Assembly (NCBI GenBank): GCA_944332725.1
Contig: CALVKO010000006.1
Span: 1-41,924, forward strand
Reading direction: 5' to 3'
Source: an uncultured Bacilli bacterium
Lineage (GTDB): Bacteria > Bacillota_I > Bacilli_A > RF39 > UBA660
Length of the DNA: 41,924 nucleotides
Positions 15,419 to 41,642 of the stretch are shown piece after piece. Made by a program: the position numbers and the translations under genes. Position 1 is the first letter of the stretch, and every line of letters starts with the position of its first letter. The notes under the pieces were generated by a model. It did no database searches. It was not told the DNA's origin and was given only the letters and a program-made list of their open reading frames with translations.

Positions 15419-15970
15419 CTACAAATTGTCAATTAAAAATCTAACTAGTAATTTTTTATTTTTAAATTCAAAAATAAAACTTAATATAAACAAAATATTT
15501 CCAAATAATGCAATAATAATATCATTCATTGTATCATATACACCAGTTTCTCTTCTTTGCATGTCAGAATTAAATATATTATCAATTGTAAATTCACACA
15601 CTTCCCATAATCCTGAAGTGGCTAATGAAAAGATAAAAATAAATAAACAACTAAATATTATATTATTAAATTTTTTAAATTTTTTTAATAATATAACAGC
15701 CAATAAACTAGATAAAAATCCCCAAAGAAAATGTGCAAAGTTATCATACCAATAAACAGTTTTATATAAATGTAATTGAAATCCTAAAAATAAAGCAAGA
15801 AAACCAAATATTAAATATAAAAGTGTAATTATTGGTTTTAATTTTAAAATAAAGGGAATTATTATATATAAACTAAATAATAATAATGTAACATCCTTAT
15901 ATATAAATGAAAACAAAAATGAAATAAAACAAAATACAAAGGAAATTATTATATTTATTTTATTCAACAT
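15419..15970 (-). CDS. Multi-pass membrane protein, YjdF/DUF2238-like
   Basis: A 183-residue protein with five or six hydrophobic helices. Conserved polar positions inside the membrane part are diagnostic of the YjdF/DUF2238 group: WYDNFAHFLWG (about residues 74-84), GLWEVCEFTIDN, and TGVYDTMNDIIIALFGN with its paired Asp residues. The function of the group is unknown. ATG 15970 lies inside the end of rmuC and is preceded by GGAGAAAA, so the gene is coupled to rmuC; rnr begins nine bases after its stop. Confidence 0.75.
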   Translation of the reverse strand: MLNKINIIISFVFCFISFLFSFIYKDVTLLLFSLYIIIPFILKLKPIITLLYLIFGFLALFLGFQLHLYKTVYWYDNFAHFLWGFLSSLLAVILLKKFKKFNNIIFSCLFIFIFSLATSGLWEVCEFTIDNIFNSDMQRRETGVYDTMNDIIIALFGNILFILSFIFEFKNKKLLVRFLIDNL

Positions 15971-17021
15971 CTATTTTCTCCATTTCTACTTGATTAATTG
16001 AATTAAATCTTTTCGTTATTTTATCAGTTGTTGTATGTATTTCTTTAACATCTTTACTTACTGTTTCAATACTACGATATAACTTGTCCCATCTTTCTTT
16101 ATATCTACTAAATTCATTACTTAATAATTTTAATTCATTATGAATAACTGTTGTATATTTATCTCGTTCCATATTTTTTATTATTACTTGAATTGTTGTT
16201 AAGGTACTAATTAAAGTAGTTGGACTAGTAATCCACACTCTTTTTTTATAAGCATACTCAATGATGTCTGGATGATGGGCATTAACTTCCGCAAAGATTG
16301 CTTCAGCAGGTAAAAATAAAATCGCTTGATCTGATGTTACGTCATCAATTATATATTTACTTGCTATTGCATCAATATGCTTTTTCATATCTGCTCTAAA
16401 TAGTTTTTCTGCTTGTTCTCTAATACTTATTTCATTTTTTCTATCAGTCATCATCTGATAATGTTCTAATGGAAATTTAGAATCAATAGCAATAGTCCCT
16501 AGTGGAAGAGGCGCAAATAAAACGCAATCTGCTATTGTATCATTATTAAACTTATACTGCATCTTATATATTTTATCGTTATCACCAAATATATTATACA
16601 TAATATTTTTTAAATTAACTTCCCCAAATATTCCTCTTGTTTTTTTATCAGTTAAAATACTTTGTAAAGATATAATATCACTAGATAAATTATCAATTTT
16701 CTTTTGGGCTTCATCTATTTTAGATAATCTTTCTAAAACATTAGTAAATGTTTTATTAGTTTTTTCAAAATTTTCATCTAGTCGTTCATTAACTTTATTA
16801 TTGATTAAAGTTAACTTATTATCTAATTTATCATTTAGTTTATCAAAGTCATTAGTCAAATCTCGACTAAAAGATGTTTTAAATTCACTAACTTCTTTTA
16901 CAACATTTGTCTCTAATTTTCCTAATCTTTCTGTTATATTTGATTCATTAATATTTTTAGACAATGATAAAATACAAACTATCAAAATAACTATTAATAA
17001 AATAATTATTATATATTCCAT
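15960..17021 (-). CDS. rmuC: RmuC-family DNA recombination protein
   Basis: RmuC family proteins limit rearrangements at inverted repeats in E. coli and have a PD-(D/E)XK-like core. The 353-residue protein has an N-terminal membrane anchor (residues 2-20), a long coiled coil (about 30-120) and the family core GIFGEVNLKNIMYNIFG, AIDSKFPLEHYQ and QAILFLPAEAIFAEV. Start ATG 17021 has GGTGAT three bases upstream and an extended -10 six bases before that. It begins the rmuC-membrane protein-rnr-smpB run. Confidence 0.93.
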   Translation of the reverse strand: MEYIIIILLIVILIVCILSLSKNINESNITERLGKLETNVVKEVSEFKTSFSRDLTNDFDKLNDKLDNKLTLINNKVNERLDENFEKTNKTFTNVLERLSKIDEAQKKIDNLSSDIISLQSILTDKKTRGIFGEVNLKNIMYNIFGDNDKIYKMQYKFNNDTIADCVLFAPLPLGTIAIDSKFPLEHYQMMTDRKNEISIREQAEKLFRADMKKHIDAIASKYIIDDVTSDQAILFLPAEAIFAEVNAHHPDIIEYAYKKRVWITSPTTLISTLTTIQVIIKNMERDKYTTVIHNELKLLSNEFSRYKERWDKLYRSIETVSKDVKEIHTTTDKITKRFNSINQVEMEKIDVE

Positions 17022-17045
17022 ACAATCACCATTTTAATTATACCA
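17022..17045 (-). promoter_or_regulatory. Compact promoter plus RBS of rmuC
   Basis: TGG-TATAAT (17045-17037), six bases, GGTGAT (17030-17025), three bases, ATG. This is the cleanest example of the compact promoter layout in the window. Confidence 0.7.
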
Positions 17046-17053
17046 TATTTTAT

Positions 17054-17084
17054 AAAAAAAAGTCTTATATTTCTATAAAACTTA
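17054..17084 (-). terminator. Terminator after the rhodanese gene
   Basis: AAGTTTTATA, loop GAA, TATAAGACTT (one G-T pair) and a run of eight T on the minus strand. It begins at the stop codon. Confidence 0.75.
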
Positions 17085-17369
17085 TTTTTCTAATAACCAT
17101 CCTTCATAACCTTCTAAAATATTATATACTTTATAACCTTTTGCCGCTAAAATATTACAAACTTTTAAACTATTTTTTCCATATTGACAATATATATAGT
17201 ATTCTTCATTCTTATTTAAATATTTTTCTGGTTCTTTTAGCAATAATATATATGGTATATTAATTGCATTATTTATATGGTTATCATTATATTTTTCAAT
17301 ACTTCTAATATCAATAATATTAATATTACTTTTTTTTAATACTTCCTTTATTGAAATATTTAATGCCAT
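17082..17369 (-). CDS. Single-domain rhodanese-like sulfurtransferase
   Basis: A 95-residue rhodanese domain. It has the N-terminal NIIDIRSIEKYNDNHINNAINIP (the DxR...H...A.N.P signature) and an active-site loop YCQYGKNS with the catalytic Cys near residue 69. The C-terminal GYKVYNILEGYEGW is typical. Such proteins move sulfane sulfur, often for Fe-S or tRNA thiolation, but no partner is obvious here. A TATAAT (17391-17386) followed by GGTGGT and ATG gives it its own promoter, so it need not belong to the adjacent type IV secretion operon. Confidence 0.9.
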   Translation of the reverse strand: MALNISIKEVLKKSNINIIDIRSIEKYNDNHINNAINIPYILLLKEPEKYLNKNEEYYIYCQYGKNSLKVCNILAAKGYKVYNILEGYEGWLLEK

Positions 17370-17391
17370 ATAACCACCCTAATACATTATA
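17370..17391 (-). promoter_or_regulatory. Compact promoter plus RBS of the rhodanese gene
   Basis: TATAAT (17391-17386), seven bases, GGTGGT (17378-17373), three bases, ATG. No clear -35. Confidence 0.55.
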
Positions 17392-17424
17392 TGTACTAAT
17401 TATTATTTAATAAAGGTAATTAAA

Positions 17425-19596
17425 CTAATCTTCATCATTAAAGAAATCATCAAAAAATTCATCATCAGTAACACCATTGATTACTTTGCTTTCTTCTTCT
17501 TTTAATTTAATTTCAGGTAATGGTGTCGTAGCTTGTTTAATATCTTGTTTAATTTCTGGAATAGGATTAGTTGAAACATCAGTTTTTTCAACAGGTGTTG
17601 GAGTGACTTTATTTTCAATAGGCACTGAAATAGTATTATCAATAGGTTTTGTTTCGGTAGAAGAAACTTTATCTTGAGTTAATTTAGCTGCATTTTCTTG
17701 TTTTTCTTGTTCTTCTAATTCTGCTATTTTAGCATCAATTCTCTTAACTAAAGAATCAATATCAAAAGAATCATTTTTTGGTAATGGTCTCTGTTCAGGT
17801 CGTGGTATATTAGGAATTCCTCCACCTGCTGAACTCATTGGATTAAATGAATTCATCATTTCATTTAATTTTGATTCTCTTTTTTTATCAACATATGCTT
17901 TTATATCAAACAATTTAATTTCTTGTTTTTCTCTTTCTGGATAAGTTGCTTTAGGATAAGACTTACCCCAGCCACCTTCTTTTTGAATTTTCCAGTCAGG
18001 AACAACTTTAGTTTTAAATGGCATTGATCTAATTCTTAAAACAATAATTGTATTTTCAGGTAATCTTTGTAAATCACTAACTGTTACTAAAGGAGTACTA
18101 GCAGTTTTATCTTTTTCTTTTGATTTAACTTCACCACATAATTTACTAATTTCCTCTAATGATGCTAATTCACTACTAATGAGGTATACAATATTACCAC
18201 AGTTACCTTTAATTGTTTCACCATTTTCTTTGCCATATACTTGATACAATTGCGCAAAGTTTTGAATAATAAATGTAAATCTTATATTTCTACTTCTTGC
18301 TGCTGTAACCATTGTAGTTACATCTTTTAAAGGTGGCATGTTAGCAAACTCATCTAATATAAAATTAGTTTTAAATGGTAATTTACCCCCTGACTCTTGA
18401 GCAACATCAATCAATGTCTCATAACATTGCTTAATAAATATTGTAACTAATGAATGATATGTTTTCTTTTCATCTTGAATTACTAAAAATACCGCTGTTT
18501 TTTTACGACCTATATCTTTTAAATCAAAATCACTGTGACTTAACATTTCAGATAAATTTTCTCTTGATGAAAATAATTTTATCTTTTGTTTAAATACTGA
18601 TAAAATACTACTTTTTGTATCATTAGGTGCCATAATAGTTGAAGAAACATTGATATAAGCGGGACTCGATTTATCTTTGTAACCAAAGTATTCCTTTATA
18701 TAAGTAGTATTACCTATTTTTTCTTCCCCAACAGTAGTCATTAAATTAATTGTATTTAAATTTATTTCTTCTTCTTTAGCATCTTCAAATAATGCTAGCG
18801 CTAAACCTGTAAAATAATCTGCAGATGTTTTTTCCCAAAATGGATCTTGACTTTGTGCCTTATCATCATAAAGAATATTCATTGCTAAGTCATCTAACAA
18901 CTCATTTGCTTTGTCTTTATTACCATTTTTATATAATTGATATGGCAAACCTAATGGATTCCATGCACTACCTTTTTGTGGATCACGAAAATTTAATAAT
19001 ACAATGTTATATCCTTTTTCTTTTAACATTTCAGCATTATTTTCATAAATTTCACCTTTTGGATCGGTAATAATCATAGATTCACCTTTTTTAGCCAATA
19101 TTCTAACCATTGGTTGAACCATTGTTTGAGTTTTACCAGCCCCAGTAGAACCTAATATTAGATTGTGATATTCACCTGAATCAACCCAAATTTCTTTACC
19201 ATTATTTATTAAAGGAATTCCCGCATATTCACTTGTTTCTTGATTAGGTAAAACCTTATTAATACCACTTTGTTTTTTAAATTCCTTTTCTTCTGCCCAT
19301 CTTGAGTATCCTTTTTCTTCTTTAGATCCTGTACTAAACCCAAAACCTTTATCTCTTTCAAAAAAATAAGAAGATACACTAGTAAAAATAAAAACTAACG
19401 CGAAAAAATATCCTACTAATGTTGGCAATAAATATTCACTTGTAAAGGCTGGAATAGGATTTAATCCATGAAAACTAGCATCGGTTGCAAAACTTGATAT
19501 ATTAAGTACTGCAATAGCTACAAAATATAACAAAACTACTGCAAATATAACAAATATCAAATAATCTTTAGCTGTTGCCTTAAATTTTAATTTCAT
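17425..19596 (-). CDS. VirD4/TraG-family type IV coupling ATPase
   Basis: Coupling proteins gather substrates at the membrane and feed them to a type IV secretion channel. The 723-residue protein has two N-terminal membrane helices (about 10-35 and 50-75), Walker A GSTGAGKT (about 150-157), a GEIYEN block, Walker B ILDEFANMPPL (about 415-425) and the conserved AARSRNIRFTFIIQN. The last 180 residues are an acidic, Pro- and Thr-rich tail ending EFFDDFFNDED, possibly a docking tail. ATG 19596 has AAGGGGTGA upstream; the GTG at 19605 lies in that site. It is the last gene of the type IV set. Confidence 0.93.
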   Translation of the reverse strand: MKLKFKATAKDYLIFVIFAVVLLYFVAIAVLNISSFATDASFHGLNPIPAFTSEYLLPTLVGYFFALVFIFTSVSSYFFERDKGFGFSTGSKEEKGYSRWAEEKEFKKQSGINKVLPNQETSEYAGIPLINNGKEIWVDSGEYHNLILGSTGAGKTQTMVQPMVRILAKKGESMIITDPKGEIYENNAEMLKEKGYNIVLLNFRDPQKGSAWNPLGLPYQLYKNGNKDKANELLDDLAMNILYDDKAQSQDPFWEKTSADYFTGLALALFEDAKEEEINLNTINLMTTVGEEKIGNTTYIKEYFGYKDKSSPAYINVSSTIMAPNDTKSSILSVFKQKIKLFSSRENLSEMLSHSDFDLKDIGRKKTAVFLVIQDEKKTYHSLVTIFIKQCYETLIDVAQESGGKLPFKTNFILDEFANMPPLKDVTTMVTAARSRNIRFTFIIQNFAQLYQVYGKENGETIKGNCGNIVYLISSELASLEEISKLCGEVKSKEKDKTASTPLVTVSDLQRLPENTIIVLRIRSMPFKTKVVPDWKIQKEGGWGKSYPKATYPEREKQEIKLFDIKAYVDKKRESKLNEMMNSFNPMSSAGGGIPNIPRPEQRPLPKNDSFDIDSLVKRIDAKIAELEEQEKQENAAKLTQDKVSSTETKPIDNTISVPIENKVTPTPVEKTDVSTNPIPEIKQDIKQATTPLPEIKLKEEESKVINGVTDDEFFDDFFNDED

Positions 19597-19639
19597 TAAG
19601 TTCACCCCTTAATCATATATAAGTATATCATATTATTAA

Positions 19640-20314
19640 TTAAATTTCATTATTTTTTTTACCAATAACAACAATAATAACTATGACAATAGCAATTATT
19701 ACAAATAATCCACCAAATATAGAAATAGTTAACAAATTATCAATTATAAAATTAAATATTTTTTCAAAAAAGTTTAGTTCTCGTAATTCACCAAATTTTA
19801 CATAAATTTGTTTATCTTTTGCGTTTTCATCATTTATATTCCATATAAGTTTATTATTTTTTAATTCATCAGCATTACTTTCAATAATTTCGTGATTAGA
19901 AGTAATAATTATTTCAACGCTATCAACTTCATTGTAATCAACAAACATGCACTTAAAACCTTTACTTGTTGATAAAATATAATCATTATTATTAGTAACA
20001 AAACTGAAAGCATCAAAACAACTATTAATGTAAAGAGCATGCCTAAATTCATCAAAATTATATGTATATTCATAAGCAGCAGTAAAATAAGAGTTTCCAT
20101 CATTATATTTTGTTTTATATAGTTTTTGAGTCGAATTATCAAAAATTGAAAAAGCGGTATATTTTTTTAAATCACTAATTTGTTTTTCATTTTCATTACT
20201 TATTTTTACATTTATTTTTTCAATTAAATTATCACCATTAAAATTTAATTCGTACTTTATTTGGCAACCAGTTAATAAAACAACAAATAATATTAAAATA
20301 ATTTTTTTAATCAC
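19640..20314 (-). CDS. Predicted lipoprotein with C-terminal membrane anchor, type IV set
   Basis: A protein of about 224 residues starting MIKKIILILFVVLLTGCQ. The LTGC lipobox predicts lipidation of the Cys near residue 17. An extracellular domain of about 165 residues follows, then a second hydrophobic helix near the C-terminus and a short basic tail. Two anchors, lipid and helix, would tie the domain tightly to the membrane surface. I do not recognise the domain. GTG 20314 is preferred because AAGGGTGG is 5-6 bases upstream. It overlaps the SpoIID-CHAP gene and precedes the coupling-protein gene, so it is probably part of the secretion apparatus. Confidence 0.7.
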   Translation of the reverse strand: MIKKIILILFVVLLTGCQIKYELNFNGDNLIEKINVKISNENEKQISDLKKYTAFSIFDNSTQKLYKTKYNDGNSYFTAAYEYTYNFDEFRHALYINSCFDAFSFVTNNNDYILSTSKGFKCMFVDYNEVDSVEIIITSNHEIIESNADELKNNKLIWNINDENAKDKQIYVKFGELRELNFFEKIFNFIIDNLLTISIFGGLFVIIAIVIVIIVVIGKKNNEI

Positions 20315-22808
20315 TTGATCCACCCTTACCTAATATATAAACATATCCATTAAAAGTATATCCTGTGCCGTAACTTTGTAATTGTTCAAAAGTTTTCGTT
20401 GTTGTACTAATAACTACATTGTCCCAATTTGAAGCACCATGTGCTCCTGCTCTATTCCACCCTTCTGACATAACAACAGTTCTATTTTCATAATCAACAC
20501 TTTCTATTATTGCAACATGTCCATAATCATGTCTAGCACCTGCGTCCGTATCACTAGTCCAAGATATTATAGAACCAGGCATTGGCATATTTCTATCAGT
20601 ACTTTTTTCAAATATATCTAATGACGGATAATCAAACCATCCTTCACCGTTTGCTCTAACAGACATTATAGCATTCAATGCAATGGATTTGGTTAAATCG
20701 TCCATATCAGAAGATAAAATTATTTCTAATGCCCTAGATTTTGCATACCAAACACATTGTCCTAAATTACTAGCATTACTATCATATATCTTTGATAAAT
20801 CAAATTGTTGACCACCAATTGAAACAATTCCTAACGATGAATAATAATCCGATCTTTCCTTTAATTCTTCAACACTTGAAGGTAAAGCAGAAGAGCTCTC
20901 AAATCCTCCAAATATGGTATTCATACCTACTATTTCAATTCCATCAGAATAGAAAAAATGTAATATTTCATCATATGATGAACCATTGTTTGCCATTTCA
21001 TATGACGCAACTTGACTCATACCGCGTCCGTGACCACCAGCAATCATATAATAATATTCTGGACTTAAATAAACCTTATGTGTTTCACCATTTGGCTTCT
21101 TTGAATAAATAACATATCTTTTACCATTTTCTTCACCATAAGTACAATTAGAATCACCATAACAATATGAATCATATTCTGAAGAAAATATCTCATCATC
21201 ATACACTAGTACCAAACCTTCAGTTGCTTCAGTTGCTTCTTTAGCAAAATCTTTAATATCTTCACTAAATACTTGATCACTTTGACTACTTTCAATTGCT
21301 TGCGAACAATTTTGTGTCCTACTTAAAGTATATGTTCTAACAGCAATAGCTTGGGCCTTATATGCTTCCATATTTTGACCACCCCACGCTTCGCCACTTA
21401 CTACACCAGCAACATATTCCTCTAAATCATATGTTCCTATAACACTACCATCAGGATCTACTACAGTAACACCCGAGCAATATGCATAAACTTTACCAAA
21501 AGATTTATGCTCATCAAAATTTTCATAAAATGAAACCCTTAAAAATATTTCTTCTACAGCGCGATCTATTTTACCCTGTGTATCCTCATTTTGCTTATTA
21601 TCATAATAAAATTTAAGCATAAATTCATTTTCTAGATATTCACGGTATCTTTCTATATCTAATTTATATTTTTCTTCATAATCAATTACTAATACTTCAC
21701 TTTTTTCACCTGTTTCAGGATCTGTAACGGTTTCATAAACATCTTCTGGACAAAAGTAATTAATATCATCATAATTTTTACCATCACTACCTCTACACAT
21801 ATGTTCACCATTAGGTGCTGCATATTCAGAACCATTTTCATAACAACAATAACTAACCATTTTAGTAGCTAACAAGTCTACTTTCTTTTCACTTTTTTTA
21901 AAATTAACATAATTAGATGGTAATAAAGCATCAATACTTGAAGCATTATCATCATCACCAGCAGTTGTTAAAAAAGGATCTGAATAAGTAAGTGTTGCTG
22001 TTATTAAATTAGTATTTAATGTTACATAATATGGATCTTTTTTGTATTTTTCATATGATTCTTCTATTTTTTCATAGAAATCATTTTGTTCTTTTTCTTC
22101 ACATTCAGAATCAGTACACCAACCTCTAAATGTTAATAAATTTCCGATTTTTTCACCAATCGATGATAACGAACCAGTAACATTTCCCATTATTTTATTA
22201 ATGTAAATTAAAGGAGCAATACTCAAACTTATTATAGCAACCAAAATTATAACTAACAAACATCCATTAATACCAAAAGTTCCTGCAGTGAAAAAACTAA
22301 TGATTTTTTTAGCCAAATCAGCCCCAAAACTACCAGAACCATCTATATTTTCCTCTTGCTCTTTATCTTTCTTGAAAAAATTAAATAATGATGGTTTCAA
22401 TGGATTTTGCAATTTCTTTGAAGTTTCATTTAGTGCAATTTGTCCAAGTTTAGTTTTTGATAATTGTTCAACTGCTATTCCACCAACTGGACCAACAGTA
22501 GCATCTGCTGCCTTTTTAGCGCCTTCTTTTATGATTTTTTGTTTGGCCTGATTAATCTTATTATTTCTATTCAAATTATTTTGTTGTAACTTATTTCCTT
22601 GATTTGTTTGATTACTAGAATACGATTTTTGTTCTTGAAAATTATTCCTTTTATTAAAATCTTCTAATTGATTATCATTATTATTTAAAATTTTATTTTG
22701 TGAAGGCAATGGTTGTTGAACATAATTTTGTTGAAAAGATTTTTCTTTTGGTGATGCCGAAAAATTTCCTTTTTGAGGAAATTCTTCTTTTTTATCTTTA
22801 TTATTCAT
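20307..22808 (-). CDS. SpoIID-CHAP two-domain peptidoglycan hydrolase of the type IV secretion set
   Basis: An 833-residue protein likely to open the cell wall for the secretion channel, the job of VirB1/CwlT-type proteins. Order: a Gln/Asn-rich cytoplasmic region (1-175), one membrane helix (about 180-205), and an external Cys-containing linker. Next comes a SpoIID domain (about 440-625) with VVSGEAWGGQNMEAYKAQ carrying the catalytic Glu, and GGHGRGMSQVASYEMA. Last is a CHAP domain (about 675-830) with Cys in LGQCVWYA and His in YGHVAIIE. SpoIID cuts glycan strands, and CHAP domains cut peptides or amide bonds. ATG 22808 has GGTGAT four bases upstream. Pairing SpoIID with CHAP in a conjugation-type protein is unusual. 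Confidence 0.85.
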   Translation of the reverse strand: MNNKDKKEEFPQKGNFSASPKEKSFQQNYVQQPLPSQNKILNNNDNQLEDFNKRNNFQEQKSYSSNQTNQGNKLQQNNLNRNNKINQAKQKIIKEGAKKAADATVGPVGGIAVEQLSKTKLGQIALNETSKKLQNPLKPSLFNFFKKDKEQEENIDGSGSFGADLAKKIISFFTAGTFGINGCLLVIILVAIISLSIAPLIYINKIMGNVTGSLSSIGEKIGNLLTFRGWCTDSECEEKEQNDFYEKIEESYEKYKKDPYYVTLNTNLITATLTYSDPFLTTAGDDDNASSIDALLPSNYVNFKKSEKKVDLLATKMVSYCCYENGSEYAAPNGEHMCRGSDGKNYDDINYFCPEDVYETVTDPETGEKSEVLVIDYEEKYKLDIERYREYLENEFMLKFYYDNKQNEDTQGKIDRAVEEIFLRVSFYENFDEHKSFGKVYAYCSGVTVVDPDGSVIGTYDLEEYVAGVVSGEAWGGQNMEAYKAQAIAVRTYTLSRTQNCSQAIESSQSDQVFSEDIKDFAKEATEATEGLVLVYDDEIFSSEYDSYCYGDSNCTYGEENGKRYVIYSKKPNGETHKVYLSPEYYYMIAGGHGRGMSQVASYEMANNGSSYDEILHFFYSDGIEIVGMNTIFGGFESSSALPSSVEELKERSDYYSSLGIVSIGGQQFDLSKIYDSNASNLGQCVWYAKSRALEIILSSDMDDLTKSIALNAIMSVRANGEGWFDYPSLDIFEKSTDRNMPMPGSIISWTSDTDAGARHDYGHVAIIESVDYENRTVVMSEGWNRAGAHGASNWDNVVISTTTKTFEQLQSYGTGYTFNGYVYILGKGGSSD

Positions 22809-22829
22809 AAACATCACCACCACTTATTA

Positions 22830-24614
22830 TTATAATCCACCGCCACTACCAAAAGAATCTAATTCTTGTTCTGTAGCGATTATATTTATTCTCATACGCC
22901 TACTACCACATACAAATAAAGCTTCACCTTGATTGTATTTTTTAATACTTTCTTTTTCATTATCATTTAAATCTATTAATTTAGATAAATCTTCAACTGC
23001 TTGCTTTTTTAATCCCATAACTAAATAATATGAAGCATTATCAAAAATTGCTTTACCTTGAGTTATAACAGAAGGATCACTAAAATCTGATGGTTGTTGC
23101 GTTATTATGATAGTACCGGTATTGTATTTTCTAGCACGTCTTTGAATTTGACCTAAGAAATCTGCACCCAAAATATTGCTACCAGAAATTAATACATGGG
23201 CTTCATCAACAGTTAAAACAGTGTTAATACTTGAATCTAATGTTAAGCTCCAAGCATATTTTAATATATTGAAAAATAAAGCATTTCTGATATTTTTATC
23301 ACTGTTCATTAATTCTTTAATATTGAAAACAACAAAATTGCTTTTTGGTTGAATTGTAGTATGTCCATCAAAATAATACCTTAATTCTTTAATTAATGGT
23401 CTAATTTTTAATTCTAATTTTTCTAAGATATCTTTTTCATGTGTCTTTTCAGGAATTGATAACAATTTTCCTTTAATTGTCGCATAAACATCTTTAAATG
23501 TTGGATAATCTTTAGATGTTAATTTAGAAAAATCAGTTGTAAAATCAATACCAAATCTTCGATATGTTTCTTGTACAATTTCACTAAAAATATTTATAAC
23601 ATCTTCATCTGTACTTGGATCGTAATATTTGATAAAAGCTTTTATTGATTGTAAAGTTCTTGTTAAAACAGTGTAACCTAATCCTTGTTTAATTTCATCA
23701 TCATCAGCATCCATTATTATTTCTAGTGGATTTACCATTCCGAATTCTCCACCTTTACCTAAATCAATGAAATCTCCACCATATAATTTGGCCATGTCCT
23801 CAAATTCGCCTTCAGGATCAATGATAACCAATTGAATGTCATTTCTAATATGCGTTCTAATTAATAATTTTGCTGCTGTTGATTTACCAGAACCAGATGT
23901 ACCTAAAATAATAATATTTGCATTATTTCGATTATGCTCTTTCTTTATTTGATACAAGAATTGATTAAATAAGATTACTCCACCAGAAAAATCAACACCT
24001 AATAAACATGATAAACCTGGATCTTTAATACTATCAAATATAAATGGGAACATTGCAGCTATAGTAGGAGCAGGAATTGGAGTACCAATTCTACTTTCAA
24101 TTGATTGGTTAGGGAAAATAGGTATTATTGATTTTAAAACTTTTTCTTGTTCAAATCGTAATGGAAAAGCTTTTAGTTCCATCGCTTCCAAATAACTTTT
24201 TACCTGCATTTTTTTTGCTATTAACTCTTCTTCAGAATTAGCAGTTATCATAACATGCATTTGAAAATCAAATATTTTAGATTGTGTACTAGCCAATTGT
24301 GAAATGAAATATTCTAATGATTCATAATCCTGTCTGATTCTTTCTTGAATAGTTCTATCATTTTCTTCTTGATATCTTACTTTTAAATCTGCTATTTCTT
24401 TATTTAACATTCTTTGAATAACACTGAATGGTAGCGGAATATGTTTTATAACAACTTTCACTCCAGACATACTTGTTAAATTAGCCAAATACCCTGGTGA
24501 AATAAATTTTGGATAAGAAATTACTGTTAAAATTGTAGCATGTTTATCACTAATAATAAAATCACTTGATCTAAACTCCAAACCTTTAGGAGCAATTTGA
24601 CTTTTAATATCCAT
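22830..24614 (-). CDS. VirB4/TraE-family type IV secretion ATPase
   Basis: VirB4 ATPases power assembly of and transfer through type IV channels. The 594-residue protein begins with the family entry DIKSQIAPKGLEFRSSDFI and has an N-terminal domain of about 210 residues. The RecA-like domain follows, with Walker A GTSGSGKST (about 240-248), Walker B LTVDEAHVL (about 470-478) and RARKYNTGTIIITQQP. It is shorter than the usual 650-830 residues at the N-terminus. The start overlaps the stop of the 181-residue gene (TAATG), so the two are coupled and may together equal a complete VirB4. Confidence 0.93.
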   Translation of the reverse strand: MDIKSQIAPKGLEFRSSDFIISDKHATILTVISYPKFISPGYLANLTSMSGVKVVIKHIPLPFSVIQRMLNKEIADLKVRYQEENDRTIQERIRQDYESLEYFISQLASTQSKIFDFQMHVMITANSEEELIAKKMQVKSYLEAMELKAFPLRFEQEKVLKSIIPIFPNQSIESRIGTPIPAPTIAAMFPFIFDSIKDPGLSCLLGVDFSGGVILFNQFLYQIKKEHNRNNANIIILGTSGSGKSTAAKLLIRTHIRNDIQLVIIDPEGEFEDMAKLYGGDFIDLGKGGEFGMVNPLEIIMDADDDEIKQGLGYTVLTRTLQSIKAFIKYYDPSTDEDVINIFSEIVQETYRRFGIDFTTDFSKLTSKDYPTFKDVYATIKGKLLSIPEKTHEKDILEKLELKIRPLIKELRYYFDGHTTIQPKSNFVVFNIKELMNSDKNIRNALFFNILKYAWSLTLDSSINTVLTVDEAHVLISGSNILGADFLGQIQRRARKYNTGTIIITQQPSDFSDPSVITQGKAIFDNASYYLVMGLKKQAVEDLSKLIDLNDNEKESIKKYNQGEALFVCGSRRMRINIIATEQELDSFGSGGGL

Positions 24615-25159
24615 TATCCTAACACCGTCCCAAAAGTAGTAGTTGTACCACCATTTAAAAAGTTATCCAAAATCATTCTCAAATCATCATTAGTTGTTTG
24701 ATAAGCAATTAATCCTGCTCCAGCAAAAGTATTAATTAAATTTCTTATTCTCTTTTGAATTAAATCATCTTTCTTTTCTCTAAATAGTAAAAAATACTCA
24801 GTATCAACTATATTATTATTCATAAACATATTTCCTTTATTAATATCTTCCATTATCAATTTTCTTTTAACTGGATTACTAACATTATTATATAACAATT
24901 CTAATTGTGATAAATAAACATTTATATCAACAGGTCTATCAGCTGCAATTATCCAAAATTCATAGTCTATCGTATTATAGACAGTTCGTAAATTTGAAAT
25001 AATACTATCTTGTGTTAATTGATCTAAAATAAAAATATTTCTAGGCATTATTTTAACACCAGTAACTTTCAATCCATTATCTAATATTATATATCCATTT
25101 TTTATTTCTTTTACTGGTATATCATCATTTGTATACCTATTTCTTTTTTTCTTCGCCAT
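24614..25159 (-). CDS. Small protein between PrgI and VirB4, possibly TrsD-like or a split VirB4 N-terminus
   Basis: A soluble protein of about 181 residues with a basic N-terminus (MAKKKRNRY). It has an alpha/beta body (GYIILDNGLKVTGVKIMP) and a C-terminal helix rich in FAGAGLIAYQT followed by a Gly/Thr tail (NGGTTTTFG). The position between a PrgI-like gene and VirB4 equals that of TrsD in staphylococcal conjugation clusters. Added to VirB4 the length would be about 775 residues, a normal full-length VirB4. Homology to either cannot be proved by eye. ATG 25159 follows a GGTGTG site; the start overlaps the PrgI gene by 23 bases. Confidence 0.6.
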   Translation of the reverse strand: MAKKKRNRYTNDDIPVKEIKNGYIILDNGLKVTGVKIMPRNIFILDQLTQDSIISNLRTVYNTIDYEFWIIAADRPVDINVYLSQLELLYNNVSNPVKRKLIMEDINKGNMFMNNNIVDTEYFLLFREKKDDLIQKRIRNLINTFAGAGLIAYQTTNDDLRMILDNFLNGGTTTTFGTVLG

Positions 25160-25454
25160 GTGGTACACACCAACCTTTCCACTTAAATTTTCTTTGATTT
25201 GTATAAAAACTTATTGCTGAACCAATCAAAGTTCTCATATTATAGTAATTTGGAACTGGGAGCACTAAAAATCCTGTTATTAATGCTGGAAGAAGTGCAA
25301 TAATTGATATTGCAAATTCTTCCAATGGTAATGTCATTAATAATAATAAAGTTAGTCCAACACCACATCCAAACAAAATCAAATCAAATTTTGTAAATAA
25401 TCCCAATATCAACATTGATTTTTTTGCATTTGCTGGTATCAAAAAATTATTCAT
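25137..25454 (-). CDS. PrgI-family (VirB3-like) inner-membrane protein
   Basis: A 105-residue protein with two adjacent membrane helices (about 22-42 and 45-68), then a short cytoplasmic tail with FYTNQRKFKWKG. Size, topology and position directly before VirB4 match PrgI/TrsC/VirB3-type components, which link VirB4 to the membrane. AGGGGTGAT precedes ATG 25454, and a TATAAT at 25479-25474 lies eight bases further up. The gene may have a second promoter besides read-through from the VirB6-like gene. Confidence 0.8.
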   Translation of the reverse strand: MNNFLIPANAKKSMLILGLFTKFDLILFGCGVGLTLLLLMTLPLEEFAISIIALLPALITGFLVLPVPNYYNMRTLIGSAISFYTNQRKFKWKGWCVPHGEEKKK

Positions 25455-25508
25455 TTTATATCACCCCTTTTTAATTATAAATAGTTATTATTTTAAAATT
25501 TTATTAAA

Positions 25509-27305
25509 TCAAGATTGTTGTGAATTATTATTATTTGGTAAAAATGGCTCTGCAGTTCTCATTGCGTCTTCAACATCTTTTTTAGGAGAATCATCAATAT
25601 GATACAATCTTTTAATATCTTTAATTTGATCATCAAGCGAACTAATATTTTTAGCATATTTACCATATAATTCTCTATTGTCTTTAATATCCTTCTCAAT
25701 AGAAATTTGTGAATTATTCATAACATTTATTTCTGCCTTTATTCTATCTTTTTCTACTTGAGTTGTAGCGGAATTATATTCCATATTTTTTTTCTCTATT
25801 TGTGTTTTAATATCCTTCAATCTATCATAATGTGATTGAAGTGCAGCATCTAATTTAGCTTGTTCACCTTGTAAAGCATACTTACTATCTTTATATTTCT
25901 TTACTTCTTTTTCACCAGTTGATTTTCCGAAATCTTTCCAAAAACCATATTGAGTAAAATCTTTACCTGTTATTTCTTTATAACCGGCTTGCATACCTGT
26001 ATGCAATGCTCTTGGGCTTTTTCCCCCTTTATCGTCACCCATTAATGGAACTTTACCTCTTATTTCTCTACCAGCCCCCATCATACCTTGCCACATACCT
26101 CTACCAGGATGTCCTGCTTCTACACCTGCTTTGTATCCAGTATAAGCTCCTCCTGCTAATGCAGCAGCTGTTGTTACGCCTGCACCAACTAAAGGTGTTT
26201 GTCTTAATTTATTCATCGGATTAAGAGTAAATTTGCCGTCCATCTTAAATCCAGTCAATTCTTCAATTAATTTAGGTAATTGTTTAGCAAATAGCAACGC
26301 ACCTAATATAATAAAAACTTTTACAAATGCATTAATATCAGGAGTTTGACCCGTAACAGCATCTTCCATTTCTAAGTCAATAAGTTGAGTTACTATAAAT
26401 ACGGCAAAATAAATTCCTAATAATCTAATAAATAAATCTAAATAAGTATTAACACAAGTTTTAACCCATTTATCAAACATATCTTTTCCTTTTTTAGGAT
26501 CAATTCTAGATATTATTGGCACAGGCGCTAACATACGTAGAAATCCAATTTTTACACTTCTAACGGCAATATCAAAGCAAAAAACTATCAATAATAGTGC
26601 AATTGCTCCACCTGCTAAAGTTGAAATAATTGGTATATATTCCATAACATATTGTTCATCACTAGTTTTCATAAATAATAAATCATAATCCATATAAATA
26701 CTAACACTAGATGTATTGTGTGCTGTTTCTAATATTTTTTTTAAATTTTCAAAATTATCTACTTTTAGCGCACTTTCACATCCACTTTCACTAGTAAACA
26801 CATGATTTCCATCACTCATACAATCAGAATATTTTCCTGTATTTTTCACATGATAAAATGCTTTTAGTGTCTCATAAGCCATAATATTACCTGGCTCATT
26901 ACTTGTATCAATATTAACACCATTTACAGAAAAAACTTTTCCAATAATATTATCATTTAAAATAATTCTTTGTATATCCATTGCTTGATTAAAAATCCAA
27001 GGCACAAACAATAATAACGCTAAAGTAATTATTATATTACTAATTAGTTTACTAAAACCCTTACTCTTGTCTAAAAAAGCATCTGGATCAACTATGTATG
27101 TAAAAATTGAAAAAGAAACTTTAAATAGCATAAAAACTCCTAATAAAGCATAAACTTTATTAGCAAATAATTCAAAAATATCATTAGTAAAAATAGATGT
27201 TTGAGCTATATCAATCAACAAGCCGTAAACTGTTGATATAAAATTATATAAAATTCCATCTAACCAAAATGATAAAAACCTTGCTATTATCTCTATATAT
27301 TCCAT
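25509..27305 (-). CDS. Polytopic VirB6/TrbL-like channel protein
   Basis: A 598-residue membrane protein. Hydrophobic helices occur in the first 100 residues, then an external domain (about 130-210), then four or more helices to about 350. A Gly/Ala-rich segment (VGAGVTTAAALAGGAYTGYKAG) and a charged, coiled-coil cytoplasmic tail ending in Gln/Ser and Asn follow. This layout is typical of VirB6/TrsL/Orf15 proteins of Gram-positive conjugation systems. It uses ATG 27305 (MEYIEII) with GGGAG six bases upstream; the longer GTG start lies in that site. It is the first gene of the type IV set. Confidence 0.85.
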   Translation of the reverse strand: MEYIEIIARFLSFWLDGILYNFISTVYGLLIDIAQTSIFTNDIFELFANKVYALLGVFMLFKVSFSIFTYIVDPDAFLDKSKGFSKLISNIIITLALLLFVPWIFNQAMDIQRIILNDNIIGKVFSVNGVNIDTSNEPGNIMAYETLKAFYHVKNTGKYSDCMSDGNHVFTSESGCESALKVDNFENLKKILETAHNTSSVSIYMDYDLLFMKTSDEQYVMEYIPIISTLAGGAIALLLIVFCFDIAVRSVKIGFLRMLAPVPIISRIDPKKGKDMFDKWVKTCVNTYLDLFIRLLGIYFAVFIVTQLIDLEMEDAVTGQTPDINAFVKVFIILGALLFAKQLPKLIEELTGFKMDGKFTLNPMNKLRQTPLVGAGVTTAAALAGGAYTGYKAGVEAGHPGRGMWQGMMGAGREIRGKVPLMGDDKGGKSPRALHTGMQAGYKEITGKDFTQYGFWKDFGKSTGEKEVKKYKDSKYALQGEQAKLDAALQSHYDRLKDIKTQIEKKNMEYNSATTQVEKDRIKAEINVMNNSQISIEKDIKDNRELYGKYAKNISSLDDQIKDIKRLYHIDDSPKKDVEDAMRTAEPFLPNNNNSQQS

Positions 27306-27352
27306 ACAATCTCCCACTCTCTAGTTAAGTAATTATCATAAACAATTATATC

Positions 27353-27393
27353 ATAAAAAAAAAAGATAATAAATAGATTTTAATTATCTTTTT
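27353..27393 (-). terminator. Terminator between the bactofilin-like gene and the type IV set
   Basis: AAAAGATAAT pairs with ATTATCTTTT on the minus strand and is followed by more than eight T. It separates the bactofilin-like gene from the VirB6-like gene transcriptionally. Confidence 0.75.
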
Positions 27394-28420
27394 TAAATTG
27401 TTGTAGTATTACTCCCATACCAATCATAATACTTATTACACTTACTAAAGTGCCTAAATATGGAACTACAGATAAAACACTAATAACACTAATGCCTATC
27501 AATCCAGTTAAATAAACATTTTCATCCTTTTTAACAAAATACTTCCAAATTAAATTTCCTACCAAATATGAAGTAAATATACTAGATAACCAAATTGCTA
27601 AAATATATAAAATTAATAATAAAATAGCAAGAGGCATACAGAACACTAATGTTAGCAACATAAGAAATATAACTGGTATCAATATGATGGATAAAGTACC
27701 AAAACCAAATAATGAAAAACCATTTAAAATAGTAATATTTTCATTTTTCTTATCAATCCGTTTAAATAACTGTGGAACAAATAGAGCAAAGGCTAAAAAT
27801 AAAACTAGTTTCCCACCATAATTAGCAATAAAACTCCATATTTTATCTTGAAATGTTACTTCAGACACTAATTTTTCAGTTGTTTTAGTTTCATTAACTT
27901 CACCATTAATTGCTATAACAGCATCTTCATTATAAGATAATGTTCCACCTATTTTGCCATCAACAGTTACTTCTGTTGCTTTCAAATTAACATTTCCTGC
28001 TATATCACCATCTATTTTAACGTTCATACCATAAATAGTAACATCTCTATTAATTTTACCTTTGATTGTAATATCACTACCAAATATAATTAAATCCCGA
28101 TCAATAGTTACATTTTCATCAAATACAATTACATTACCAAAAATAAAACCATCATTTTTAATATTTCCTTTGACACTTATATTATTACCAAATATAAGTG
28201 AATAATCGCTTTCGCCATTAAAATTTACATTATTTCCGAATAACATATCTATGCCTTCAACAATATTATTAGATGTTACATTATTGCCAAAAATAACTGA
28301 ACTACCAACAACTTCTTTTGTGTCATCCACATCTTCATCTGCTATAAAATTTAAACCATCTGCTCTTATAATCATAGGAATAATTAATAGACACACTATC
28401 AAAAAAATTAATTTCTTCAT
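27380..28420 (-). CDS. Bactofilin-like beta-helix protein with signal peptide and membrane domain
   Basis: A 346-residue protein with a cleavable-looking signal (MKKLIFLIVCLLIIPMIIRA). About 140 residues of short beta-helix repeats follow, many reading like FGNNV or IFGNxI every 16-18 residues. The C-terminal half has four or five membrane helices. The repeat region resembles polymer-forming bactofilin (DUF583) domains, but here it is predicted outside the cell and tethered to a membrane domain. ATG 28420 is preferred because GGTGAT lies exactly three bases upstream, as in neighbouring genes; ATG 28423 touches the site. It has its own promoter and terminator, so any link with the adjacent secretion genes is only positional. 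Confidence 0.75.
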   Translation of the reverse strand: MKKLIFLIVCLLIIPMIIRADGLNFIADEDVDDTKEVVGSSVIFGNNVTSNNIVEGIDMLFGNNVNFNGESDYSLIFGNNISVKGNIKNDGFIFGNVIVFDENVTIDRDLIIFGSDITIKGKINRDVTIYGMNVKIDGDIAGNVNLKATEVTVDGKIGGTLSYNEDAVIAINGEVNETKTTEKLVSEVTFQDKIWSFIANYGGKLVLFLAFALFVPQLFKRIDKKNENITILNGFSLFGFGTLSIILIPVIFLMLLTLVFCMPLAILLLILYILAIWLSSIFTSYLVGNLIWKYFVKKDENVYLTGLIGISVISVLSVVPYLGTLVSVISIMIGMGVILQQFKKDN

Positions 28421-28444
28421 CATATCACCATTAACATAATACCA
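28421..28444 (-). promoter_or_regulatory. Compact promoter plus RBS of the bactofilin-like gene
   Basis: TGG-TATTAT (28444-28436), six bases, GGTGAT (28429-28424), three bases to ATG 28420. Confidence 0.65.
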
Positions 28445-40597: not shown

Positions 40598-40626
40598 AAA
40601 AATAGAATGCTTTTCATTCTATTTTA
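40598..40626 (-). terminator. Terminator after the GH25 lysozyme gene
   Basis: AAAATAGAATG, loop AAAAG, CATTCTATTTT and T run on the minus strand. The stem covers the lysozyme stop codon. Confidence 0.85.
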
Positions 40627-41642
40627 AATAACTTTTTAATAAAATTAATTATTGTTTTAAATATTGAAACAAAAATATTTTCTTTAACAATATCTGTATT
40701 TTGATTATCATTAGGAATATCCACAGTATTATTATTTGAATCAAGATTATCACTAGAATTATCTACAGATTCTTTTGTATAATTAACATTAATAACTTCA
40801 TCTTTTGTTATTACACCAGATATAATATCTTTATCGGCAATATAACCTTCTATTTTTGGACTAGTAAAACTATAACTTGTATTTAATAATAATTCTTTAT
40901 TAATAGCTGGTGCAATAGTTTCATCGTTATATAGATAATTTATTGTAAGTTTTTTATATTCAACTATTTTCGAATAACCATTTAAACCATTTTCAAGCAT
41001 AATATTAGGATAATCTTTATAACTATAATTCATATCAACATTTCCACCAATACCATTAACTTTACCAGAACTAGAATATTGCCATAAACCATACTTTTCA
41101 CTAAAACTAACTGTTTTACTCCATTGCGCTATCCATTTATCATAACTAGTTAAATCTTTTAAAATCAATTTATCTTTAAACCAAGAAGTAGAAGCATAAA
41201 TAGAAACATAATACTTATTAGACTCTAATATATCGCAAAAAGTTTTAATAATAGGCGTTAGTTTTGTCTTGCCAATAGTTGCTTGACTAGTAGGAGCATA
41301 TGAAGAGTTACTTATATTGTGACTATCCTCAGTGTCAATAGCGATTGGATATTCGAATTTCTTACCTTTTAATATTGATAATACAAAATTAGCCTCAGAT
41401 TTGGCTTCGTCAATAGTAGTAGCACAAGAATAATAATAAGTGCCAAGTGGTAAACCAACTTGTTTACATAAACTATAATTGTTTTCAAAATATCTATCAA
41501 CATATTTTAATTTACTTTTACCATAAGAAGTATATCCACATCTAATTATAACAAATTTAACTCCATCATCTTTCATTTTTTGAAAATCAGATAAATTCAA
41601 TTTACCTTGCCATTCTGAAATATCTATACCTTTTAATTCCAT
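40614..41642 (-). CDS. GH25 lysozyme with MucBP-like domain, no signal peptide
   Basis: A 342-residue protein. Residues 1-205 form a GH25 muramidase with GIDISEWQG, RCGYTSYG, GTYYYSCA, AIDTED (catalytic acidic residues), WIAQW and the closing WQYSSSGKVNGIGGNVDMNY. A MucBP-like segment follows (about 228-290, LTINYLYNDE...VNVNYTK). Then come an Asp/Asn/Ser linker and a C-terminal amphipathic helix (FVSIFKTIINFIKKLFKIE). No secretion signal precedes the catalytic domain, and AGGAG before ATG 41642 supports this start. It could be exported by another route, or the C-terminal helix may attach it to membranes. Its gene follows the rRNA operon terminator. Confidence 0.9.
   Translation of the reverse strand: MELKGIDISEWQGKLNLSDFQKMKDDGVKFVIIRCGYTSYGKSKLKYVDRYFENNYSLCKQVGLPLGTYYYSCATTIDEAKSEANFVLSILKGKKFEYPIAIDTEDSHNISNSSYAPTSQATIGKTKLTPIIKTFCDILESNKYYVSIYASTSWFKDKLILKDLTSYDKWIAQWSKTVSFSEKYGLWQYSSSGKVNGIGGNVDMNYSYKDYPNIMLENGLNGYSKIVEYKKLTINYLYNDETIAPAINKELLLNTSYSFTSPKIEGYIADKDIISGVITKDEVINVNYTKESVDNSSDNLDSNNNTVDIPNDNQNTDIVKENIFVSIFKTIINFIKKLFKIE

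Follow-up and report, generated by a model that had tools for sequence, protein, structure and literature searches.

A block of seven minus-strand genes, located at positions 17425-27317 of a 41,924-nucleotide contig from an uncultured Bacilli bacterium, encodes what by sequence comparison is a type IV secretion system (T4SS) of the monoderm mating-pair formation class FATA (MPF-FATA), TrsD/TrsE type. On balance, we favour reading this block as the exporting half of a contact apparatus lodged permanently in the chromosome. In this apparatus, a Tad/Flp-type pilus and VirB2-like pilins would join with the T4SS to exchange protein or DNA. Such a machine might serve for trade of material between these bacteria and the cells around them. 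The whole contig (hereafter the window) is labelled C6 and belongs to a 1.2-Mb metagenome-assembled genome (MAG) that is 71% complete and carries the genome label G000. A first-pass annotation, made from the sequence of the window alone, had proposed seven consecutive T4SS genes, and all were present on re-check. In order of transcription, they code for a VirB6-like protein, a PrgI/VirB3-like protein, a 184-amino-acid (aa) protein, VirB4, a SpoIID and CHAP wall hydrolase, a lipoprotein, and VirD4. Their predicted products, with the evidence for each, are given below.

17425-19605, minus strand: VirD4-type coupling ATPase (type IV coupling protein, T4CP), 726 aa; PF02534 E 1e-55, NF045973 298.6 bits (cut-off 250)
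17440-17466, minus strand: VirD4 C-terminal motif DDEFFDDFF, putative docking element; motif comparison among relatives
19640-20323, minus strand: double-anchored lipoprotein with LppM-like fold, 227 aa; lipobox, AlphaFold2, Foldseek
20307-22823, minus strand: membrane-anchored wall hydrolase, SpoIID plus CHAP, 838 aa (VirB1 role); PF08486 E 1.5e-14, PF05257 E 1.7e-11
22830-24614, minus strand: VirB4 ATPase (TrsE-like), C-terminal part of a split VirB4, 594 aa; NF045975 E 1.7e-106 (model positions 295-891), PF19044, AAA_10
24614-25168, minus strand: N-terminal part of VirB4 as its own gene (TrsD-like), 184 aa; NF045975 E 4.8e-13 (model positions 97-276)
25137-25454, minus strand: PrgI/VirB3-like membrane protein, 105 aa; PF12666 E 0.1, with position, size, and conservation in relatives
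25509-27317, minus strand: VirB6-like polytopic membrane protein with a long charged cytoplasmic tail, 602 aa; PF19597 (TrbL_4) E 1e-5

Assignment to the MPF-FATA class reflects the presence of a VirB4 with a separate TrsD-like protein, a VirD4 coupling protein, and a VirB1-like wall hydrolase. VirD4, VirB4, and the hydrolase have strong profile matches (Pfam/NCBIfam), and the SpoIID and CHAP domains of the hydrolase each score above cut-off. Matches are weak for the VirB6-like protein (TrbL_4, 25.4 bits versus a cut-off of 27), which starts at either a GTG (27317) or an ATG (27305), and for the PrgI-like protein, whose match falls under the curated cut-off and whose place in the gene order is conserved. 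No VirB8-like protein was found within the block, and a genome-wide search for one was not made.

The gene first described as a small VirB4 companion is indeed related to VirB4; more precisely, it is the N-terminal part of that protein on a gene of its own. A single full-length VirB4 model, NF045975 (TraE of a Mycoplasma integrative and conjugative element, ICE), spans both the 184-aa protein and the ATPase, and therefore VirB4 is split into TrsD-like and TrsE-like polypeptides. The order PrgI-TrsD-VirB4 recurs in 75 of 77 related loci, with stop and start codons overlapping by 1-4 nucleotides in most; locus counts of this kind were drawn from the nearest 80 relatives and so are weighted to close kin. 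To judge from this conservation, the split is old. A mobile-looking locus in another Bacilli family (L154, G439:C4) also has a split TrsD-like/VirB4 pair, which suggests that the split predates domestication.

Taken by itself the block is incomplete, and the ancestral locus holds more than the seven genes first described. In relatives, the same-strand genes before VirB6 encode CpaB, a CpaF/TadA-type ATPase, two TadB/TadC-like membrane proteins, a short pilin-like protein, two TadE/F-like proteins, one TadZ-like protein, and two small VirB2-like proteins. Among 51 loci with at least 9.4 kb of upstream sequence, Tad genes lie upstream on the same strand in 48 and VirB2-like genes in 50, the latter count being restricted to open reading frames (ORFs) of 100-160 aa upstream of VirB4 because the B2a profile matches small membrane proteins too readily. 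The cluster includes both a CpaF/TadA ATPase and a CpaB/RcpC protein, two of the parts expected of a Tad/Flp pilus. CpaB matches PF16976 over its cut-off and TIGR03177 below it (E 1e-12). For the ATPase, the best Protein Data Bank (PDB) match is CpaF (E 6e-16), and the NCBIfam VirB11 model (110 bits) outscores TadA (90). The VirB2-like products are small proteins with two transmembrane (TM) segments, of which 9 of 31 members show a weak match to T4SS_pilin PF18895 (best E 2e-4, below the curated cut-off).

In G000, the Tad/VirB2 half is located on contig C26 (6061-15186), and the same half followed by HPF and SecA is found in three congeners (L140, L157, and L158). The locus exists in three states within the genus: it is contiguous in G002, G011, G012, and G013; TadABC lies apart in G007, G009, and G015; and the T4SS stands alone beside a bactofilin gene in G000, G001, G008, G014, G016, and G017. 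Accordingly, a bactofilin gene adjoins VirB6 in six of the 13 congeners with a readable locus state, and TadZ and VirB2-like genes take that position in the other seven. These three states, together with the half on C26, indicate that the window holds a secondarily broken locus. As reconstructed from gene order, the Tad and T4SS genes are ancestrally linked.

The Tad region of relatives contains several further genes. A large polytopic membrane protein, YfhO-like by eye, is encoded between the pilin-like and TadE-like genes of G000 (C26; L139:10041-12524) and inserted likewise in G016, and a similar large gene is present in the L046 cluster. A family of single-pass extracellular proteins of 358-412 aa, possibly an adhesin or pilus tip, lies between the VirB2-like genes in 19 loci (L020, L028, L034-L036, L041-L044, and others). 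In a single-contig genome (G128:C1:66448-77438, L155), ftsA-ftsZ precede the Tad cluster, among whose genes are two for CpaB and one for a surface protein of 1439 aa. At G153:C2:46613-47701, the frame containing TadA stays open for 24,789 aa and resembles either a masked or N-filled sequence or a giant region free of stops.

VirB4 is present in 17 of 18 congeners (86-99% identity) and, at a threshold of E <= 1e-131, in about 260 of the 288 genomes of the order, representing ~102 genera. When 395 genomes of the class were compared, identities of 66-100% were confined to the bacterium's own family. Eight matches outside the family are 31-35% identical, with none above 35% in the ~340 genomes of other families, and the best match in 72,556 plasmids is 30.8% identical, with none exceeding 31% among the matches listed. 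Close relatives are MAGs labelled as uncultured Bacilli, Mollicutes, Tenericutes, or Candidatus Coprosoma. Coprosoma has been assigned to the Genome Taxonomy Database (GTDB) order RF39 (PMC8035907), and the Bacilli order that carries the machine is very probably RF39.

Several comparisons bear on how the locus is inherited. Trees of VirB4 and InfB from 26 genomes have 12 of 23 splits in common, compared with a mean of 0.25 and a maximum of 3 for random labels, and their distances are correlated (Mantel r 0.66, p 1e-4). VirD4 is located downstream in all 51 related loci with enough sequence, and rhodanese or RmuC genes follow in 48 of the 51. Within the genus, the ratio of nonsynonymous to synonymous substitution rates (dN/dS) for the conserved parts is 0.034 for VirB4, 0.052 for the TrsD-like protein, and 0.114 for VirD4, and the comparison genes RmuC, SmpB, and Rnr fall at 0.050-0.067 (RmuC 0.050, Rnr 0.067). 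Higher values characterise the fast parts, namely the VirB2-like proteins (0.33), VirB6 (0.395), the hydrolase (0.51), and the lipoprotein (0.57). Judged by these sequence comparisons, the machine is chromosomally fixed and vertically inherited, and its ATPases are under strong purifying selection. The proposal that it is a domesticated machine rather than an ICE is borne out by its fixation, inheritance, neighbourhood, and selection alike.

Both flanks of the block consist of ordinary genes, as had been noted from the window. The suggestion that they mark the locus in relatives holds for the rhodanese-RmuC side, which is conserved; the bactofilin/DUF2179 side is diagnostic only of the rearrangement seen in some congeners. 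The adjoining genes are as follows.

15960-17021, minus strand: RmuC, conserved neighbour; in 39 of 51 loci with 8.5 kb of downstream sequence
17082-17369, minus strand: rhodanese domain protein, conserved neighbour; in 38 of the same 51 loci
27380-28423, minus strand: bactofilin-like membrane protein (PF04519 E 0.001); upstream neighbour only in genomes where the T4SS stands alone (state C)

The VirD4 tail is the strongly conserved, system-specific part of the machine. Of 63 intact VirD4 proteins of relatives, 62 end in the motif [VI][TS]DD[QE]FFDDFFxD (DDQFFDDFF in short) after an unconserved linker. All 79 occurrences of the motif in related loci are C-terminal, and the motif is absent from three VirD4 proteins of mobile-looking ICE or other-family loci. 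It has a single match in the window and none in 100 shuffles, and no FFDDFF motif was found in viral contigs. Docking peptides typically have this form, a conserved tip carried by a flexible arm, which suggests a docking role and makes the tail a handle for finding cargo. The acidic tail and the lipoprotein had both been put forward as system-specific candidates. The tail, whose motif is kept across the order, has stood up, and the lipoprotein is instead a fast-evolving, exchangeable part with an LppM fold.

The lipoprotein is double-anchored as predicted, with a lipobox cysteine (Cys20) that is invariant in 66 sequences and a C-terminal TM helix at residues 197-225. Its AlphaFold2 model (predicted local distance difference test score 92.5) best matches LppM (2nc8, Foldseek E 2e-7), and its candidacy as VirB8 was rejected because of this fold. 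Nine related loci encode, between the hydrolase and VirD4, a protein of 168 aa whose NTF2 fold resembles that of TcpC/VirB8 (Z 10.9 to 3ub1, above all background rows, and 8.1 to OrfG). The hydrolase keeps its N-terminal cytoplasmic part and one TM segment, and its C-terminal enzyme varies. Six congeners have CHAP in this position and ten have M23, as called by Pfam for ten of these genomes and from C-terminal sequence for the remainder, and the genus tree requires no fewer than five changes. Other relatives seem by eye to have further hydrolase types. Such frequent swapping of the wall-cutting domain would fit changing target walls better than the cell's own wall.

The slot between VirB4 and VirD4 holds additional genes in some relatives. 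In L029, L041, L043, and others, one to three extra hydrolases are present, apparently of NlpC/P60, C39-like, M23, and glucosaminidase-like types by eye. Recurrent single-pass proteins of about 257 aa are also found there, as is a 187-aa protein on the opposite strand. Some of the ORFs in this slot may be cargo or immunity genes.

In the contact apparatus that we propose, the pilus and a VirB2 filament would grip a neighbouring cell, and the membrane-anchored hydrolase would open the wall locally. The two VirB4 polypeptides, PrgI, VirB6, and the lipoprotein would form the membrane channel. VirD4 would then deliver cargo, chosen by means of the flexible arm that ends in DDQFFDDFF. The cargo is most likely protein, with DNA a less likely second choice. 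The exposed parts (VirB2, VirB6, hydrolase, and lipoprotein) might diversify rapidly because different partner cells are encountered.

Several observations weigh against this proposal. TadB, TadC, TadZ, the Flp pilin, and TadE/F have no significant profile match and were assigned by order, size, and TM pattern; in particular, searches with Pfam, PDB profiles, and profile-profile comparison yielded no significant T2SSF match for TadB/TadC. Across the 288 genomes of the order, VirB4 and TadA occur together in 227, VirB4 only in 33, TadA only in 13, and neither in 15, a co-occurrence (Fisher p 2e-6) that is inflated by linkage and shared descent. Genera g22, g42, and g47 keep the T4SS without a TadA match, suggesting that the Tad part is not strictly required. 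The cell also has a separate Com-type pilus (a PilB/ComGA-like cluster at G000:C12 and pseudopilins) and ComEC, so that DNA uptake has another route and needs no second pilus, although the present machine might still serve in uptake. The Com pilus itself was considered as the partner of the T4SS and dropped, since its cluster occurs also in G003, which has no T4SS. Finally, a search confined to the locus, in which the variable ORFs between hydrolase and VirD4 were clustered, brought to light neither a cargo nor an immunity gene nor a partner.

An ordinary ICE or its remnant is effectively ruled out as an explanation. The homology to Mycoplasma ICE TraE (NF045975) and to CD1115-type VirD4 would suit such an element, as would a direct repeat (17010-17030 and 27294-27314, 20 of 21 nucleotides identical) that encloses 17031-27293 and is the only flank-like repeat. 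However, the VirB4 and InfB trees are congruent, the dN/dS values indicate purifying selection, and the chromosomal neighbourhood is kept. The absence of any direct repeat at the edges had been claimed, and although this one exists, it is the ribosome-binding and start region 'GATTGTATGGAATATATA' common to RmuC and VirB6. It is missing from most congeners and was rejected as an att site, leaving no conserved att repeats. The remainder of that claim stands, as no relaxase is present in the block or its flanks and no integrase or recombinase was seen among the window ORFs, a genome-wide search for the latter two not having been made. No empty site was found among congeners. The one genome without the T4SS, G003, was dropped as a candidate empty site and is uninformative because RmuC is absent there too; the whole region may be missing from that MAG. 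It had also been suggested that a relaxase gene could lie elsewhere in the genome. Neither PF18555 nor PF03432, the two families searched, was found in the 71% of G000 that is available, and what lay elsewhere was the Tad/VirB2 half. That the block is a helper, a resident conjugation pore transmitting relaxase-bearing mobile elements in trans, is very improbable. Relaxases do occur in roughly one genome in four or five (PF03432 in 25 of 97, 20 of them over cut-off; PF18555, or MobL, in 10 of 97), and congeners carry separate ICE-like loci (L093, L094, L095, and L096) whose other VirB4s are 25-35% identical and about 690-840 aa long. Most genomes have no relaxase found, yet the machine is kept under strong selection, and the distribution of relaxases appears patchy and independent of it. 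Moreover, both L093 and L094 have a VirB4 of their own together with a MobL-like ORF, which scores above the Pfam cut-off in L093 and below it in L094. L093 (G011:C14:8000-27999) also has its own VirD4, a sortase-like protein, and a large surface protein.

A more serious competitor, although we consider it unlikely, is a machine for DNA exchange or import that would be the bacterial counterpart of archaeal Ups pili and Ced, in which pili gather kin cells and a relaxase-less T4SS moves chromosomal DNA. Ced is likewise a domesticated, relaxase-less T4SS with VirB2, VirB6, and VirB4 homologues that works alongside type IV pili (PMC9905601). RF39 bacteria reportedly have no de novo synthesis of nucleic acids (PMC13155120), VirB4 weakly matches CedD (46 bits), and the conserved neighbour RmuC is associated with DNA recombination. 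Ced is described with only CedA, CedA1, CedA2, and CedB, and with neither VirD4 nor a wall hydrolase (PMC9905601). However, an uptake route is already supplied by the Com-type pilus ATPase, pseudopilins, and ComEC, and in Patescibacteria the effect of losing the T4SS was not reproduced by losing ComEC (PMC12857230). Import would also leave unexplained the cargo-arm-like tail of VirD4 and the domain swapping of the hydrolase. General secretion of proteins or surface components into the medium with no target cell, as reported for the Streptococcus suis 89K T4SS, is rather improbable. Protease export by monoderm T4SSs is possible (PMC12857230), but the linked pilus and VirB2 filament genes suggest contact, and the exposed parts evolve rapidly. 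Returning to the contact apparatus, a bolder form of it is that the hybrid of Tad pilus and T4SS carried throughout RF39, an order of abundant gut bacteria with reduced genomes, is a dedicated epibiotic or predatory machine for living on, feeding from, or attacking bacteria, with cargo selected through the universal FFDDFF tail, and that it arose in Bacilli in parallel to, or by exchange with, that of Patescibacteria. We regard this form as possible and hold it tentatively.

As likened from published descriptions, the closest resemblance is to the T4SS of Patescibacteria (Saccharimonadia and others), which is chromosomal, lineage-wide, and mostly relaxase-less MPF-FATA (PMC12102498, PMC12857230). 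Both have VirB4 and a separate TrsD, together with PrgI, VirB6, and VirB2-like pilins (putative in RF39), and both occur in small genomes with type IV pili. Patescibacteria require their relaxase-less T4SS, with its VirB2 arrays and accompanying type IV pili, in order to grow as epibionts (PMC12102498, PMC12857230). The RF39 bacteria belong to another phylum, however, and differ in that VirD4 is in the operon, which is rare in Patescibacteria, and in having a Tad/Flp-type cluster in the locus, a regularly present, domain-swapping VirB1-like hydrolase, and the FFDDFF tail. A 2025 review states that among monoderm T4SSs, VirB2/VirB5-type subunits are known only in Patescibacteria (PMC12857230). 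RF39 would be a second lineage of small-genome bacteria, unrelated to Patescibacteria, with a fixed, relaxase-less T4SS and pilin-like proteins, here in one locus with a Tad-type pilus.

Other known systems share parts of this arrangement. Mycoplasma/Spiroplasma ICEs (Mbov_0397/TraE type) and TrsD/TrsE systems of the pGO1 type form one such group; the closest named VirB4 model (NF045975) comes from here, and Mycoplasmatota and Spiroplasma are among the best plasmid VirB4 matches (27-31%). Those are mobile elements, whereas this locus is fixed and no relaxase was found. The Tad/Flp pilus, and in Myxococcus the Kil system of Tad plus a type III secretion system (T3SS*), similarly place CpaB, a CpaF-type ATPase, and small pilin-like proteins beside a secretion machine, and Kil provides a precedent for contact killing in which both machines meet at the prey contact site (PMC12075869, PMC8460266). 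Here the partner is a T4SS, there is no secretin (the cell is monoderm), and TadB/C/Z are assigned by position and topology only. In IncI R64 and PAPI-1, a type IV pilus is genetically paired with a T4SS (VirB4/VirD4), although those are Gram-negative conjugative elements. Beltran et al. stated that they knew of no report, outside archaea, of a conjugation apparatus domesticated to transfer DNA (PMC9905601).

Our literature search, largely without subscription papers, found no paper on T4SSs or Tad pili of RF39. These bacteria are uncultured and widespread in animal guts, are said to lack nucleic-acid synthesis, and are suspected of depending on other organisms (PMC13155120). The locus therefore offers a concrete, testable candidate for how RF39 might interact with other cells. 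Elsewhere in the window, at 40614-41642, lies a gene that by eye encodes a GH25-like muramidase whose C-terminus is short and amphipathic, a second wall hydrolase close to the locus.

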